Part shown: piece by piece, positions 1 to 5,039 of the stretch | Layout of the letters: each line of letters begins with the position of its first letter | Numbering within the stretch: position 1 is the first letter of the stretch | From: a virus | IMG/VR virus record: IMGVR_UViG_3300037245_004848 | Span: 1 to 31,434 of that record | Length of the DNA stretch: 31,434 nt | Direction: 5' to 3' (one strand) | Notes under the pieces: model-generated | What the model saw: only the letters and a program-made list of their open reading frames with translations | Database searches by the model: none | What the model was told of the DNA's origin: nothing | Program-made: the position numbers and the translations under genes

Positions 1-330
1 ATGGATAGAAATGATTGGCTTGACATAGAACCGTTTTCTATAGATACAGACAAAAAAGATTGGTTTAACGCAGATTTAACTGATGAACAATTGAAGGGCC
101 TTAAAAAGATTGAAAAGGTAAATGCTATAATAAATAGGATTTATTATGCAGTACTTAAGAAAACTGAAGAATACAGGAATGAAGACAGGAATGAAGACAG
201 GAGGTTTGATGAAAAATGTAATCAACGTGAATTTAGGGGATTATCAGAAAAAATTAAACGCGTAGAAAGACAATCAATATGCCTTACGATTGCTTTTGTT
301 ATCTTAGCGATAAGTACATTCTTTCATTAA
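1..330 (+). CDS. Small protein with C-terminal membrane segment
   Basis: 109 residues, function not recognised. The N-terminal 85 residues are highly charged and include a short duplicated stretch (RNED twice) encoded by a perfect 12-bp tandem repeat at 175-198. The last 18 or so residues are hydrophobic and could anchor the protein in a membrane, leaving almost nothing outside. The ATG is the first base of the window, so the ribosome binding site and any longer N-terminus cannot be seen. It is followed after 10 bases by another small membrane protein gene, and all genes up to 3994 read the same way, so it is probably the first visible gene of a long operon. Confidence 0.6.
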   Translation: MDRNDWLDIEPFSIDTDKKDWFNADLTDEQLKGLKKIEKVNAIINRIYYAVLKKTEEYRNEDRNEDRRFDEKCNQREFRGLSEKIKRVERQSICLTIAFVILAISTFFH

Positions 331-340
331 AGGAGGAGTT

Positions 341-463
341 ATGAAAACAGATGAGATGGATGATTATTTAATAAATAAAATAGCGAATAAAACAGCAAAC
401 CGTATTTTCGCTTTAGCCGCTATTATTTATTGTTGTTATTATTTTGGTAAATTGTTTTTTTAA
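341..463 (+). CDS. 40-residue membrane peptide
   Basis: A 40-residue open frame directly preceded by an excellent ribosome binding site (AGGAGGAG ending 2 bases before the ATG). The first 20 residues are polar (MKTDEMDDYLINK...), and residues 22-40 are hydrophobic and aromatic (FALAAIIYCCYYFGKLFF), giving a single C-terminal transmembrane segment. It fits exactly between its neighbours (10 bases after one gene, 14 before the next). Its plan, a charged N-terminus and a hydrophobic C-terminal end, matches the genes on both sides, which suggests related roles at the membrane. Function unknown. Confidence 0.6.
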   Translation: MKTDEMDDYLINKIANKTANRIFALAAIIYCCYYFGKLFF

Positions 464-489
464 ATAGGAGATAGGTTATGAGTAATGAA
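461..489 (+). repeat. 29-bp direct repeat over a translation start, copy 1
   Basis: The 29 bases from the stop codon of the upstream gene through the ribosome binding site to the fourth codon of the next gene are identical to 943-971. The core is TAAATAGGAGATAGGTTATG followed by codons for Met-Ser-Asn-Glu. Identity on both sides of the ATG suggests duplication of a whole translation start module. Confidence 0.85.
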
Positions 490-945
490 GAATGGGGTGA
501 TGATTTTGATAGATGTCCAAGTGAACTTGTTAAGCTGATTAAGGCAGATGTTAAGGCAGAAAAGCCAGTAACGGTAGGTAGCATGGCTGATTTTTTATCT
601 GAAGCAATATGGGCAAAAATAGATGCTAAATTAACAGAAAGAGAAGGAAAAGAAAAAGCTGAGAAAGAAAAGGAGGACAAATTCCGCAGATGGATTAAGG
701 AAGGTTTAAACGCTCCACCCATACGTATTGTCCCTAATATAAATAAAACCATTAAAAGACTGCAAAAAGGAAGTGAACTGTCGAATTCAGAGATTACTGA
801 TTCCATATCAGAGATTACTAATTCCATACGTAATATTACTTATAAATTTAAAATCATGAAAAGAACAATAAATTTTATATTATGTTGGATAGTTATTTAT
901 TCAGTTATTGAGCTTTGTATAGCTTCAATTGCACTTTTTAATTAA
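478..945 (+). CDS. Charged protein with C-terminal membrane anchor
   Basis: 155 residues, function not recognised. Residues 50-72 are a dense Lys/Glu stretch likely to be helical. Around residues 104-118 a short repeat (SEIT-S-I) is encoded by a 21-bp tandem duplication at 787-807 and 808-828 with one mismatch. Residues about 128-153 are a hydrophobic segment (FILCWIVIYSVIELCIASIALF), so the protein is probably tail-anchored with its soluble part in the cytoplasm. The ribosome binding site is AGGAGATAGG just before the ATG. The 29 bases spanning stop, binding site and first codons recur exactly in front of the next gene. Confidence 0.65.
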   Translation: MSNEEWGDDFDRCPSELVKLIKADVKAEKPVTVGSMADFLSEAIWAKIDAKLTEREGKEKAEKEKEDKFRRWIKEGLNAPPIRIVPNINKTIKRLQKGSELSNSEITDSISEITNSIRNITYKFKIMKRTINFILCWIVIYSVIELCIASIALFN

Positions 946-971
946 ATAGGAGATAGGTTATGAGTAATGAA
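943..971 (+). repeat. 29-bp direct repeat over a translation start, copy 2
   Basis: Second exact copy of the stop, binding site and start module at 461-489, here in front of the RecT-family gene. Together the copies flank the gene at 478-945, so recombination between them would delete that gene cleanly and leave a functional start. Confidence 0.85.
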
Positions 972-1796
972 ATACAACTACAATCAGAAGGAATCAGCGG
1001 ATCTATTGTTCAGTTCGGTAACGGATTTGGGACTATGAGTGAAGCTCAGAAATTCGCAGAAATTGTATGCAAAACAGAATTTGTTCCAAAAACAATGCAA
1101 GGTAAACCATTTGATGTTCTTATAGCAATGGAAATGGGGGCTGAAATAGGATTAAAGCCTATGCAATCAATACAGAACATTTCCGTTATAAATGGTAGAC
1201 CTTCTGTTTGGGGGGACGCAGCATTAGCTTTAGTTAAAAGTCATAAAGATTATGAATACTGTAAAGAATATCTTACAAATGATAATAGTTGCGCAATATG
1301 CGAAATAAAAAGAAGGAATGAACCTGTAGTAACAGCATCATTTTCGATAAAAGATGCTGAAGTTGCTGGTCTAATATCTAGCGCAACCTCGCCGCACTCT
1401 CCATGGCGTAAATATCAAAAGAGAATGCTACAGATGAGAGCCAGAGGTTTTGCGTTAAGAGACTCATTCCCAGACGCTTTAAAGGGGTTAATTACAGCAG
1501 AAGAAGCTCAAGATTGTAATGTGATACAAAATCAAGAAACTAAACAATATAAAAATGTGACCCCCGTAGAAAATGAAATTATTACTAATGGAGATGTGGC
1601 AGAAGAAGTGCCTGAAGAAGCGCCCGAGGAAGAAATGATAAGAAAGGAGAATGTTTTATTACTTTTAGACAAAATGTTAGTAGATAACAAATTTACTGAA
1701 AATGAAGTAAGGAAATGGACTAGAAAAGGCGGAGTAAATAATTTATCTGAATTAAAACTCGAGACACTTGAAGCTATTCATAATAAATATAAATGA
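960..1796 (+). CDS. RecT-family single-strand annealing recombinase
   Basis: 278 residues. Residues about 26-185 match the RecT-type phage proteins common in proteobacterial prophages: an N-terminal helix with MSEAQKFAEIV, the stretch GLKPMQSIQNISVINGRP followed by WGDAALALV, and the run KRMLQMRARGFALRDSFPDAL followed by LKGLITAEEAQD. These proteins pair complementary single strands during phage recombination and replication. The C-terminal 90 residues are acidic, then helical, and are not recognised. No partner exonuclease is visible, though the RusA-like resolvase and an SSB-like candidate lie in the window. The start uses the strong duplicated binding site at 943-971. Family assignment is by remembered motifs, without an alignment. 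Confidence 0.85.
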   Translation: MSNEIQLQSEGISGSIVQFGNGFGTMSEAQKFAEIVCKTEFVPKTMQGKPFDVLIAMEMGAEIGLKPMQSIQNISVINGRPSVWGDAALALVKSHKDYEYCKEYLTNDNSCAICEIKRRNEPVVTASFSIKDAEVAGLISSATSPHSPWRKYQKRMLQMRARGFALRDSFPDALKGLITAEEAQDCNVIQNQETKQYKNVTPVENEIITNGDVAEEVPEEAPEEEMIRKENVLLLLDKMLVDNKFTENEVRKWTRKGGVNNLSELKLETLEAIHNKYK

Positions 1797-1799
1797 TAT

Positions 1800-2066
1800 A
1801 TGCTTGATAAACAATTATTAAAACCACTTAAAAGTTTATTAAATAAACATTATAGGTGGCTAAAATCAAATGCAACAAAAGGAGAAAGACTGGACTTAAG
1901 TGATCTTGATTTACGATCATGTAAATTTTCCGGATCAAATCTTACGGGGTCTACAATAACATTAGAACAATTAGAAAGTATGTTTTTATTGGTTGACGAA
2001 ACACTAACTACAATGCGGGTGGGGTTAAATGTTCATAAAATAGAAATAGAAGAGGGGGAAATATGA
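1800..2066 (+). CDS. Short pentapeptide-repeat protein
   Basis: 88 residues. It carries the header shared by the proteins at 2063, 2529 and 3611: a helix with spaced Leu residues, then HxxWLxS...GERLDL. Only about three pentapeptide units follow (LSDLD, LRSCK, FSGSN, LTGST), before a tail (ITLEQLESM) that matches the tails of its paralogues (ITRSQLNEM, IKRSQLDTM). Pentapeptide repeats form a right-handed square beta-helix; this one would make barely one coil. The ATG follows the recT stop by 3 bases with no clear binding site, so translation is probably coupled. Its last codons overlap the next start (ATGA). Role unknown. Confidence 0.7.
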   Translation: MLDKQLLKPLKSLLNKHYRWLKSNATKGERLDLSDLDLRSCKFSGSNLTGSTITLEQLESMFLLVDETLTTMRVGLNVHKIEIEEGEI

Positions 2067-2371
2067 ACGAAGAACAGTTAGATAAAACACTTAGGGATCT
2101 ATTAGAAGATCATAAGAAATGGAATGACAGCTACATTAGAGATGGAGAACAATTAGATTTAACTGAGGCTAATTTAAATGTAGCCAATCTAAGTAATTCT
2201 GATTTGATCGAAGCTTGTTTAAGTTATTCTAATTTAACTGGAGCTTATTTAAGAGAAACTAATTTAACTAAAGCTGATTTAAGTTATTCTAATTTAAGTG
2301 GGGCTTATTTAACTGGAGTTAAAATCACAAGGTCTCAGCTAAATGAAATGATTATAGAGGAAGATTTATAA
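2063..2371 (+). CDS. Pentapeptide-repeat protein
   Basis: 102 residues. Header MNEEQLDKTLRDLLEDHKKW and the ERLDL-like junction (EQLDL) are followed by about eleven A(D/N)LxX units from residue 34 to 90, such as ANLNV, ANLSN, SDLIE and ADLSY, then the conserved tail ITRSQLNEMIIEEDL. The repeats predict roughly three coils of a beta-helix whose surface can mimic DNA; in Qnr/MfpA relatives this protects or inhibits gyrase, but that role is not shown here. Bases 2221-2252 and 2281-2312 are nearly identical, a 60-bp internal duplication. The binding site AGAGGGGGAA lies in the upstream gene. The stop overlaps the next start (TAATG). Confidence 0.8.
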   Translation: MNEEQLDKTLRDLLEDHKKWNDSYIRDGEQLDLTEANLNVANLSNSDLIEACLSYSNLTGAYLRETNLTKADLSYSNLSGAYLTGVKITRSQLNEMIIEEDL

Positions 2372-2532
2372 TGTTAGTTATTTTCGTGTTATTTTTGTGC
2401 TTTCTATTGGCATTTTTGATCCTGTCTTGTGCTCCGCTGATTTCAGAGTTGTTGCTTTCGATACTTTTAATTTCGACAGTGCTTGTTTACATTTGGTCGA
2501 TTTACTTGTTACTAAATAAGGAAAACTTATGA
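2371..2532 (+). CDS. 53-residue two-segment membrane protein inside the pentapeptide operon
   Basis: A 53-residue, almost wholly hydrophobic open frame that exactly bridges two pentapeptide genes. Its ATG shares a base with the upstream stop (TAATG) and its stop overlaps the downstream start (ATGA). Residues 2-20 (LVIFVLFLCFLLAFLILSC) and 26-48 (LLLSILLISTVLVYIWSIYLLL) are two transmembrane segments separated by a short loop APLISE. A binding site AGAGGAAG precedes it. The perfect fit of both overlaps makes this a real gene. Function unknown; holin-like or membrane-partner roles are only guesses. Confidence 0.7.
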   Translation: MLVIFVLFLCFLLAFLILSCAPLISELLLSILLISTVLVYIWSIYLLLNKENL

Positions 2533-2837
2533 ACGAAGAACAGCTATACAAGACCTTAAGAGAAGTTTTAGATAATCATAAGGAATGGGCTAATAGCGGA
2601 GGGCATAGTGGTGAACGGCTAGATCTAATCGATGCTTATTTACAAAAAGCTAATTTAAGCGGGGCAGATTTGAGTGGAGCTATTTTACACAACGCTGATT
2701 TAAGCGATGCTTATTTATATGGTGCTGATTTAAGTGATGCTGATCTACAAGACGCTGATTTACGGGGTGCTGATTTAACTGACACAGAATTACGTAGAGT
2801 TGATTTACGTGTCGCTCATATAGAAAGAGGGGATTGA
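2529..2837 (+). CDS. Pentapeptide-repeat protein, most regular of the set
   Basis: 102 residues. After the header (MNEEQLYKTLREVLDNHKEW...GERLDL) come about thirteen textbook units: ANLSG, ADLSG, AILHN, ADLSD, AYLYG, ADLSD, ADLQD, ADLRG, ADLTD and so on, with Ala at i-2, Leu at the centre and small or polar residues between. This predicts a regular right-handed beta-helix of about three coils. Unlike its paralogues it lacks the (R)SQLxxMI tail and ends in ERGD. The start overlaps the upstream membrane protein stop by four bases. It is followed 4 bases later by a further header-bearing gene. Confidence 0.8.
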   Translation: MNEEQLYKTLREVLDNHKEWANSGGHSGERLDLIDAYLQKANLSGADLSGAILHNADLSDAYLYGADLSDADLQDADLRGADLTDTELRRVDLRVAHIERGD

Positions 2838-2841
2838 TACT

Positions 2842-3060
2842 ATGAATGAAGAACAGCCAAGCAAGAACGTAGAAGAGCTTCTGGGTAAGGCGACACCAGA
2901 ACAAATACAACAACATGCCGAATGGCTTGAAAGCGGAGGAAAGCTCGGAAAACCGATGTATTTAATCAGAACTGATTTAGGCAATATTCCTCATAAGCAT
3001 TTTAGAAACCCAGATTCAAATTGGGATTATTTTTTTGGATCTGATTTTAATTTATGCTGA
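2842..3060 (+). CDS. Header-only relative of the pentapeptide proteins
   Basis: 72 residues. It starts MNEEQPSKNVEELL and has HAEWLESGG, clearly related to the header of its neighbours (MNEEQL...HxxW), but the following residues (YLIRTDLGNIPHKHF...) hold no pentapeptide units. The C-terminus is rich in aromatics (WDYFFGSDFNLC). It looks like a paralogue that lost or replaced its repeat domain. It has a good binding site (AGAGGGGA) 9 bases before the ATG, so it is probably still translated. Function unknown. Confidence 0.6.
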   Translation: MNEEQPSKNVEELLGKATPEQIQQHAEWLESGGKLGKPMYLIRTDLGNIPHKHFRNPDSNWDYFFGSDFNLC

Positions 3061-3088
3061 GACACTATAAAAATAGGAAAAAATATAG

Positions 3089-3412
3089 ATGAAGAAAAAT
3101 GAAACAATTATAGATTTAAGCGGACAAGATCTGAGTAAATCAAATTTAGAAGGCTGCAATTTAAGCGAGGCTAATCTAAAAGATTCAGTAATTAGTACAA
3201 ATCAAGTAATGGAGTTTGATTATATAACTTCTGACTCAAAATTGAATAATGAAGTTGGCTGTATGCTGTTTTCTGTAATTGGATTTCGAAAATGCAGCGA
3301 TGAGATTGAATTAGTTTTTACAGCCAATTCAGAAGTTCCGAAAAAGGCTCTTATTGGCATGATTGATAAACTAAGAAAACAAATCGTAAAGGCTATTAAA
3401 GCGGAGAAATAA
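3089..3412 (+). CDS. Short pentapeptide segment fused to an unknown domain
   Basis: 107 residues. It lacks the MNEEQ header but has about four pentapeptide units at residues 9-32 (LSGQD, LSKSN, LEGCN, LSEAN, LKDSV). Residues 34-42 (ISTNQVMEF) resemble the tail of the other proteins. From residue 55 an unrelated alpha/beta-looking region follows (VGCMLFSVIGFRKCSDEIELVF...) and ends in a Lys-rich helix (LRKQIVKAIKAEK). The binding site is weak (AGGA, 10 bases before the ATG). Function unknown. Confidence 0.6.
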   Translation: MKKNETIIDLSGQDLSKSNLEGCNLSEANLKDSVISTNQVMEFDYITSDSKLNNEVGCMLFSVIGFRKCSDEIELVFTANSEVPKKALIGMIDKLRKQIVKAIKAEK

Positions 3413-3413
3413 A

Positions 3414-3614
3414 ATGACGTATATAAAAACAGTCGTAATACCCACAAAAACAGTCGTAACGCCAAGCAAAGGTATTACATCAGCTGAACATTACAGAAGA
3501 AAATCAAAAAAATATGAAGTAACCGAAAAAAAAATAATGGAAACAATGGAGAAAATGGGCATTGATATTAATGATAGTAGATTTAATAAAAATAAAAAGG
3601 AGGATGTGGAATGA
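3414..3614 (+). CDS. Small basic protein in the pentapeptide operon
   Basis: 66 residues, not recognised. The N-terminus holds two near copies of a short motif (KTVVIPT and KTVVTPS), encoded by 14-bp direct repeats at 3425-3438 and 3446-3459. The rest is Lys/Glu-rich and probably helical (YRRKSKKYEVTEKKIMETMEKMG). It starts 2 bases after the upstream stop with GGAG nearby, and its stop overlaps the next start (ATGA), so it is part of the same operon. Confidence 0.6.
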   Translation: MTYIKTVVIPTKTVVTPSKGITSAEHYRRKSKKYEVTEKKIMETMEKMGIDINDSRFNKNKKEDVE

Positions 3615-3994
3615 AAGAAGAACAGTTGGATAAGACTCTAAGAGAGTTGTTAAAACAACATAAAGAATGGGTTGAAAGCGAAGGAACAGAAGGTGAACGA
3701 ATCGATTTAAATGATGCTGATTTACGTAGAGCTACTTTAATTAGCGCTGATCTACGAGAAGCAAATTTATTTCAAGCTTATTTAATTAACGCTGCTTTAA
3801 CTTTTGCTTTTTTAAATGAAGCTAATTTAAGAAACTCTAATTTAACTGACGCTAATTTAATAAAAGTTGATTTAACTAGAGCTAATTTAAAGGAAGCTAA
3901 GATCAAAAGATCTCAGCTAGATACTATGATAATTGAAGAGGATACAACCACCGAGGATAACTCGGATGTTCAACTTAAGGAGTTACTGAAATGA
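3611..3994 (+). CDS. Pentapeptide-repeat protein, last gene of the operon
   Basis: 127 residues, the longest of the set. Header MKEEQLDKTLRELLKQHKEW...GERIDL, then about thirteen units from residue 37 to 102 (ADLRR, ATLIS, ADLRE, ANLFQ, AYLIN, AALTF, AFLNE, ANLRN, SNLTD, ANLIK, VDLTR, ANLKE), then the shared tail IKRSQLDTMIIEED and an acidic extension. A strong GGAGG lies upstream and the start overlaps the previous stop by four bases. The units differ in detail from those of its neighbours, so the copies have diverged beyond simple recent duplication. A DNA-mimic role is possible from the fold only. Confidence 0.8.
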   Translation: MKEEQLDKTLRELLKQHKEWVESEGTEGERIDLNDADLRRATLISADLREANLFQAYLINAALTFAFLNEANLRNSNLTDANLIKVDLTRANLKEAKIKRSQLDTMIIEEDTTTEDNSDVQLKELLK

Positions 3995-4101: not shown

Positions 4102-4383
4102 CTATTTTATGTCTTCCTTTATTTTATTGCAAACTTTAAATTTCACACGCTTGTGCGCTGGTATTATTACCTTTTCGCCCGTTTTGAAATTTCTTCCTTC
4201 CTTTTCAAGTCTATCAAGAATATAAAACGTTCCAAAGCCTTTTAATTTAACGTCTTCTCCAAGACCAATTGATTCGTGTATTGTATCTAAAAATGCACTG
4301 ACATAATCAGCAACTTTTTTTTTGCTGATGCCAGATAACATAAGTTTGTCCATAACTGATGAAACTAACTCTTTCCTGTTCAT
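4102..4383 (-). CDS. HU/IHF-family DNA-bending protein
   Basis: 93 residues, the usual length. It has the N-terminal helices (RKELVSSVMDKL...ISKKKVADYVSAFLDTI), the beta-sheet motif VKLKGFGTFYI at 46-55, and the arm sequence GRNFKTGEKVIIPAHKRVKFK at 63-83. These proteins form dimers that bend DNA for recombination, packaging or promoter control. At residue 66 the arm-tip proline that normally intercalates between base pairs (GRNPxTG) is phenylalanine. The gene follows the serine recombinase in the same direction after 86 bases that hold their own promoter-like and palindromic sequences. The binding site GAGAGGTG precedes the ATG. Confidence 0.92.
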   Translation of the reverse strand: MNRKELVSSVMDKLMLSGISKKKVADYVSAFLDTIHESIGLGEDVKLKGFGTFYILDRLEKEGRNFKTGEKVIIPAHKRVKFKVCNKIKEDIK

Positions 4384-4469: not shown

Positions 4470-5039
4470 TCAATTTGAGGGCAAAGACAAATATCTGTAA
4501 AAGGTTGTTTTAGATATTTTTAAACTATCGCATATCTCTCTAATTGAAACTTCCTTTGTATTATTCATTACTTTCGCCATCTTTACCTTTGGATTGTCTA
4601 TAGAAATTGCTGGTCTGCCCCCGTGTCTTCCTCTGGATCTTGCGGATAATAAACCAGCCCTTGTTCTTTCTTGTATTAATTTGCGCTCAAATTGAGCTAA
4701 TGAAGAGAAGATGTTGAATATCAATTCACCAGATGCAGTTGTTGTATCCATTACACCATCACATATTGAACGGAAATCGATATTCTTTGTGCGAAGATCT
4801 TCGATCAAAGACATTAAATGCGGCACTGAACGTCCAAGACGATCTAATCTCCATACAACTAGAGTATCTCCAGGAGATAAAAATTCTAAACATTTCTTTA
4901 ACTCAGGCCTGTCCGCTCTTGCGCCACAAGATTGCTCTGAAAATATATCATTACAGCCAGCTTTTACCAAAGCTTCTATTTGCAATGAGACATCTTGATC
5001 ACTTGTACTGATTCTTGCGTAGCCAACTAATTTCCCCAT
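4470..5039 (-). CDS. Serine recombinase (resolvase/invertase family)
   Basis: 189 residues, the size of Hin/Gin/Tn3-resolvase proteins. The catalytic serine is S11 in YARISTSDQ, and R9, R64, D66, R67 and R70 (VWRLDRLGRS) are in place. The E-helix region (TASGELIFNIFSSLAQFERKL then ERTRAGL) and the GRHGGRP linker at 137-143 precede a C-terminal helix-turn-helix (SIREICDSLKISKTTFYRYL). Such enzymes cut and rejoin DNA at short inverted-repeat sites to invert or resolve segments. The 189-base gap upstream is packed with palindromic repeats that could be its site and operator. Whether it acts on this phage genome cannot be told, since no matched pair of crossover sites is evident. Confidence 0.93.
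   Translation of the reverse strand: MGKLVGYARISTSDQDVSLQIEALVKAGCNDIFSEQSCGARADRPELKKCLEFLSPGDTLVVWRLDRLGRSVPHLMSLIEDLRTKNIDFRSICDGVMDTTTASGELIFNIFSSLAQFERKLIQERTRAGLLSARSRGRHGGRPAISIDNPKVKMAKVMNNTKEVSIREICDSLKISKTTFYRYLSLPSN

Follow-up and report, generated by a model that had tools for sequence, protein, structure and literature searches.

Organization of the locus

The DNA analysed here, referred to as the window, is an IMG/VR virus record of 31,434 bases with a P22-like portal protein (nearest Thalassomonas phage BA3, at 27%). On its plus strand, positions 1 to 3994 form an operon-like run of short genes that overlap or are separated by gaps of fewer than 30 bases, and most starts are preceded by a purine-rich, ribosome-site-like sequence. 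The neighbourhood is headed by a gene for a RecT-like ssDNA-annealing protein (960..1796, plus strand), which matches PHROG 561 (E 1.1e-38) and lies just under the cut-off for Pfam RecT (E 1.3e-4). The plus-strand ORFs 5' of recT (1-330, 341-463 and 478-945) encode C-terminal or single hydrophobic segments and belong to no family of note. Positions 455-489 and 937-971 are 94% identical over 35 nt and comprise, for genes 478 and 960 (recT) respectively, the ribosome site and the opening 12 bases of the coding sequence; together with the paralogues described below, they are a further instance of 5' gene ends in common within the run.

Downstream of recT, all on the plus strand and named here by their first position, lie four genes that encode a common N-terminal header followed by pentapeptide repeats. 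Gene 1800 (1800..2066, 88 amino acids) has few repeats, which together with its tail count as about 1.75 coils, and matches a header profile derived from other phages (E 2.3e-6). Genes 2063 (2063..2371, pI 4.3) and 2529 (2529..2837, pI 4.5) both encode 102 amino acids with a header and about 3.5 coils, which in 2063 are followed by an SQLxxMI tail; they match PHROG 7713 with E 2.2e-14 (residues 8-91) and E 1.7e-25, respectively. Gene 3611 (3611..3994, 127 amino acids) combines the header with four coils and the SQLxxMI tail (PHROG 7713, E 1.5e-20). Two further members are incomplete. Gene 2842 (2842..3060, 72 amino acids) is a divergent header-only copy that matches no family, and gene 3089 (3089..3412, 107 amino acids) has about six repeats, equivalent to about 1.75 coils, without a header (Pfam Pentapeptide, E 4.7e-6, residues 9-32). 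The repeats of 3089 precede a C-terminal region of about 65 residues without a convincing family (weak match to PHROG 36083, E 0.004). Between 3089 and 3611 lies a basic ORF of 66 amino acids (3414..3614, pI 9.6) with only a weak match to PHROG 5277 (E 8e-4).

A putative gene of 53 codons (2371..2532) is located between 2063 and 2529. It encodes two predicted hydrophobic spans, matches no protein family, has a plausible ribosome site inside 2063, and overlaps 2063 by TAATG and 2529 by ATGA; the coordinates and the span prediction thus agree with the preliminary description of a two-span ORF placed between two paralogues. Just past the array, the minus strand carries a gene for a small DNA-binding protein (4102-4383; PHROG 379, E 8e-26), HU/IHF-like by eye, and one for a serine recombinase of DNA-invertase type (4470-5039; PHROG 125, E 1.5e-65). 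Searches of the window for RNA families and tRNAs gave no match, and promoter- and terminator-like sites were no more frequent in it than in shuffled sequences.

A paralogous family related to PHROG 7713

The relationship among the header-bearing genes was assessed by aligning the first 33 residues of each protein (42 for 2842) and comparing the scores with those of 2000 shuffles. All pairs among 1800, 2063, 2529 and 3611 scored between 67 and 112, well above the shuffle maxima of 41-50, which bears out the earlier proposal of a common header. The consensus MNEEQLxKTLR that had been proposed for all four suits 2063, 2529 and 3611, whereas 1800 starts with MLDKQLLKPLK. For the header of 2842, alignment with 2529 and 3611 gave scores of 62-64, where shuffles reached at most 46-51, and alignment with 2063 gave 45, where they reached at most 37; with 1800 the score was no higher than 36, which 2 of the 2000 shuffles attained. 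The preliminary reading of 2842 as a header without repeats therefore holds for a divergent copy, and the complementary reading of 3089 as repeats without a header agrees with its Pfam match and with the lack of any header similarity in the same alignments. At the DNA level, 70 nt from the 5' end of 2529 and from that of 3611 share 74% identity with 2063 in both cases, which is consistent with duplication inside the lineage of this virus.

The repeats are recognized by Pfam PF00805 (Pentapeptide) above the gathering score of 20.2 bits in 2063, 2529, 3089 and 3611 and below it in 1800 (16.5 bits). An SQLxxMI tail had been ascribed to three genes. The tails of 2063 ITRSQLNEMIIEED and 3611 IKRSQLDTMIIEED are clearly related, while that of 1800 (ITLEQLESM) shows a looser likeness and 2529 has no such tail. 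When 3611 is aligned with 2063 and 2529, a single ten-residue gap, corresponding to two units, falls inside the repeats. Each unit measures 15 bp in the DNA, and in orf232 of the P22-like phage L a 15-bp in-frame deletion took out one repeat unit (PMC8022706); length change by whole units is thus documented in the family. The proteins 2063, 2529 and 3611 have pI values of 4.3-4.7, and the net charge over their repeats is -5, -9 and -2, respectively; short phage proteins are often acidic, and both the charge and the early-region setting are given here without a control set.

One of the refuting conditions set beforehand was a header match to a well-described domain of known function; the header does match a described family, the phage pentapeptide-repeat family PHROG 7713, itself without known function. 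The header motif L..LL..H..W....G.RxDL corresponds to the N-terminal part of this family. PHROG 7713 covers header and repeats of 2063, 2529 and 3611, starting in each at profile position 7-8; its match to 1800 is weak (E 0.0046), that to 3089 is confined to the repeats (E 0.001), and 2842 is not matched. Outside the window, PHROG 7713 matches that include the header region occur in the Listeria phages A500 and LP-101, the Salmonella phages Oslo and epsilon34, Staphylococcus phage Romulus, Rheinheimera phage Barba17S and several IMG/VR contigs, and those in A500, Oslo, epsilon34, Romulus, Barba17S and IMG/VR contigs start at profile position 1-6. In Listeria A500 gp54, Salmonella epsilon34 gp42 and ST160 Orf232, and Romulus gp101, the same header (L..iL..H..W....G.RadL) is directly followed by the repeats. 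Like the window proteins, these examples are encoded in early or replication regions. In contrast to them, the window copies are shorter and arranged in tandem, and they are devoid of the extra C-terminal region that follows the repeats in the PHROG 7713 examples (GCQ.H..EEW in Salmonella).

The distribution of the family is broad. A tblastn search with 2063 matched 296 phage records, 149 of them with a coverage of at least 80%, and a query combining header and repeats found at least 338 IMG/VR stretches and 12 contigs in a collection of bacterial and archaeal genomes. In plasmids, the header gave a chance-level match only. In the PDB, the header search aligned no pentapeptide chain across the header, and a marginal match to a CRISPR-associated protein (profile positions 2-28, E 0.83) was disregarded. 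A header profile built from 54 headers of other phages, with no window sequence included, ranked 2529, 1800, 3611 and 2063 highest among the window ORFs (E 2.8e-7, for 2529, to 1.8e-3), followed by 2842 with E 0.056. In this search, 2063 (11.6 bits) and 3611 (15.5 bits) scored below the highest value obtained with 4000 shuffles of the 2063 header (16.6 bits); the membership of these two therefore rests on PHROG 7713 and on their being paralogous to 2529 and 1800, rather than on the outside profile alone. When ten headers of this type were aligned with that of 2842, H17, W20, G28, L33 and L38 were invariant.

Tandem arrays of header paralogues are not special to the window. Three consecutive header genes are present in each of the outside loci L096 and L097, in the latter with a common tail of their own (LNNTxF), two are present in L079, and Romulus has two header genes about 1.8 kb apart. 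In a 413 amino acid protein (L108:2325-3566), what appears to be a second header-like segment, DVRKILSDHMTWIRESGARGSRAVL, separates two blocks of repeats, so that the header can occur internally too. The full gene set of the window was not seen together elsewhere, and no close relative of the virus was among the IMG/VR matches; searches of IMG/VR via RecT, the terminase and the membrane ORF by exact short-peptide patterns, which find close relatives only, confirmed none. The preliminary description had singled out the locus as unusually distinctive, a view that does not hold for header and repeats, which are those of PHROG 7713 and widespread in phages, tandem arrays included. The locus is a fairly ordinary PHROG 7713-type set.

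The genomic neighbourhood of homologues in other phages fits the position beside recT in the window. The left early operon of P22-like phages contains the homologue, close to N-type and kil/c3 genes and upstream of erf, which follows it in Oslo and ST160. In A500, ssb lies two genes after it, and in Acba_14 it is followed by a RecA-like recombination gene, although the pentapeptide protein of this phage has repeats without an evident header. Among 132 neighbour proteins, Erf-like and Sak4-like proteins, SSB, primase/helicase and replication initiators are the commonest, and DNA methyltransferases also occur; these neighbours were hand-picked from diverse loci without a background set and show a setting, not an enrichment. 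With recT here and erf, sak4 and ssb in other phages, the neighbourhood suggests an accessory gene located in the early recombination/replication region.

Predicted fold of the header and the repeats

An AlphaFold2 model of 3611, computed from a hand-chosen alignment of 14 sequences, has a mean pLDDT of 87 and a pTM of 0.76, with block pLDDT values of 93-97 over residues 11-100. In this model, 3611 is confidently predicted as a pentapeptide solenoid. The header forms a single helix (residues 3-22), one-residue bridges recur regularly between residues 32 and 97 with a spacing of five, and residues 100-105 form a short helix that coincides with the SQLDT tail common to paralogues. Header and tail can be read as two end-caps, a prediction for 3611 that is extended to the paralogues by homology. 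The single-sequence model of 2842 was uninformative (pLDDT 51). Together with the Pfam and PHROG matches, the 3611 model supports the earlier description of the locus as a family of small beta-solenoid (pentapeptide) paralogues in an operon-like plus-strand run beside recT, and we hold the assignment of family and architecture with high confidence.

Structural matches to the 3611 model comprise synthetic pentapeptide solenoids, NP275, MfpA, HetL and QnrB, with VIA-align Z scores of 15.3 for NP275, 14.2 for MfpA (6zt4_B) and 11.6 for QnrB1. SV2 and other low-ranked VIA matches resemble the model in solenoid shape alone. The cyanobacterial proteins NP275, HetL, Alr5209 and Alr1298, among the better natural structural matches, share the solenoid fold but differ in genomic context, and sequence matches to pentapeptide proteins in the PDB cover the repeats, not the header. 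MfpA, Qnr, McbG and AlbG likewise are acidic, right-handed quadrilateral beta-solenoids; the window proteins differ from them by having about two to four coils, a helical N-terminal header and scores far below the Qnr/MfpA family cut-offs.

Possible roles in early infection

The explanation that we consider best comprises several steps. PHROG 7713-type proteins have been duplicated in tandem in the early recombination region beside recT, each full copy being predicted as a small, acidic, right-handed beta-solenoid. At the N-terminal end of the solenoid, the header is predicted to form a capping helix of 20 residues, and the SQLxxMI tail would be a short C-terminal cap. In-frame deletion or duplication of 15-bp units can alter the number of coils, and whole genes have been duplicated and have diverged, as in the header-only 2842 and the headerless 3089. 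The products would act as accessory early proteins whose solenoid surface binds a host protein. This partner would most likely be an enzyme that handles DNA and accommodates an acidic rod resembling DNA, and its identity would differ from one paralogue to another. As a whole, this explanation is put forward tentatively, at somewhat less than an even chance. Early occupation of a DNA-handling enzyme of the host by such a rod is the likeliest mechanism that we can infer, target and action included, and is nevertheless doubtful. The solenoids are short for DNA mimicry, and the wide variation of repeat net charge among the paralogues weakens a DNA-mimic role common to all of them. In the open-licence literature, no experimentally determined function was found for header-bearing phage pentapeptide proteins.

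The acidic solenoids could instead act in anti-defence, by inhibiting restriction or another DNA-recognising defence system. This is in line with acidic proteins encoded in early regions that also contain methyltransferases and, in ST160, ral, and with gene and repeat numbers that vary as expected for host-interaction genes. However, the pentapeptide DNA mimics McbG and QnrB did not inhibit BREX (PMC7261183). None of ten proteins from the region matched a PADLOC defence profile at E 0.01, this library not being one of anti-defence proteins. We consider an anti-defence role unlikely.

A role as gyrase or topoisomerase modulators of the Qnr/MfpA type, which would reduce supercoiling in the host to the benefit of phage replication, is suggested by the common fold class and the above similarity to MfpA and QnrB1. 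MfpA and Qnr proteins have eight to nine coils. The window proteins are much shorter than these, with 1.75 to 4 coils by count where eight or more and a C-terminal dimer interface are expected of this type, their charge is unequal among paralogues, and their scores of at most 31 bits compare with curated NCBIfam Qnr/MfpA cut-offs of 240-500 bits. Moreover, HetL, NP275 and synthetic solenoids, which are not gyrase-related, are also similar in fold. In favour of such a role, a Listeria phage operon protein is reported to resemble gyrase-inhibiting pentapeptide proteins, by HHpred only (PMC12282133), and other phages encode small gyrase inhibitors, the unrelated Gip and Igy (PMC10886550). Gyrase modulation appears quite unlikely, and both this and the anti-defence role are partly contained in the proposed occupation of a DNA-handling enzyme.

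It is decidedly unlikely that the array reflects a neutral or weakly selected expansion, in which recombination would duplicate genes rich in repeats and these would be retained without serving a particular function. The 15-bp repeats, the divergent header-only copy and the headerless copy would all be compatible with such an expansion, but the conservation of H17, W20 and G28 in distant phages and the wide distribution of the family suggest selection.

The preliminary description had also proposed a membrane partner, and the tight translational overlaps that set 2371 between two paralogues would fit a single membrane complex of solenoids and the 53-residue protein in superinfection exclusion. 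In addition, ST160 has a gene annotated as superinfection exclusion on the downstream side of the homologue, and sieB is nearby in Oslo; both are, however, usual parts of P22-like left operons. No relative of 2371 was detected in phage records, even at E 10, or, by exact short-peptide patterns, in IMG/VR, so that conservation lends support neither to its being a coding gene nor to a link with the repeats. A small neighbouring ORF with a hydrophobic span accompanies just 7 of 109 outside header proteins, and the seven are all different and unrelated in sequence. The products of 1-330, 341-463 and 478-945 have hydrophobic segments as well, and a membrane neighbour is therefore not specific to the repeat genes. 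The partnership is thus unsupported, and the exclusion complex is very improbable. It is hardly probable that, beyond capping, the header helix serves for docking, with 2842, 2371 and the solenoids forming a membrane-tethered early complex that occupies host DNA enzymes.

Since the family and its tandem arrays were already present in databases, the locus is modest as a discovery. Pentapeptide proteins with such a header are common in phages, and among those found here none has a demonstrated function. The locus offers a compact natural series of short, middle, four-coil, header-only and headerless forms, with which the roles of the header and of coil number can be probed.
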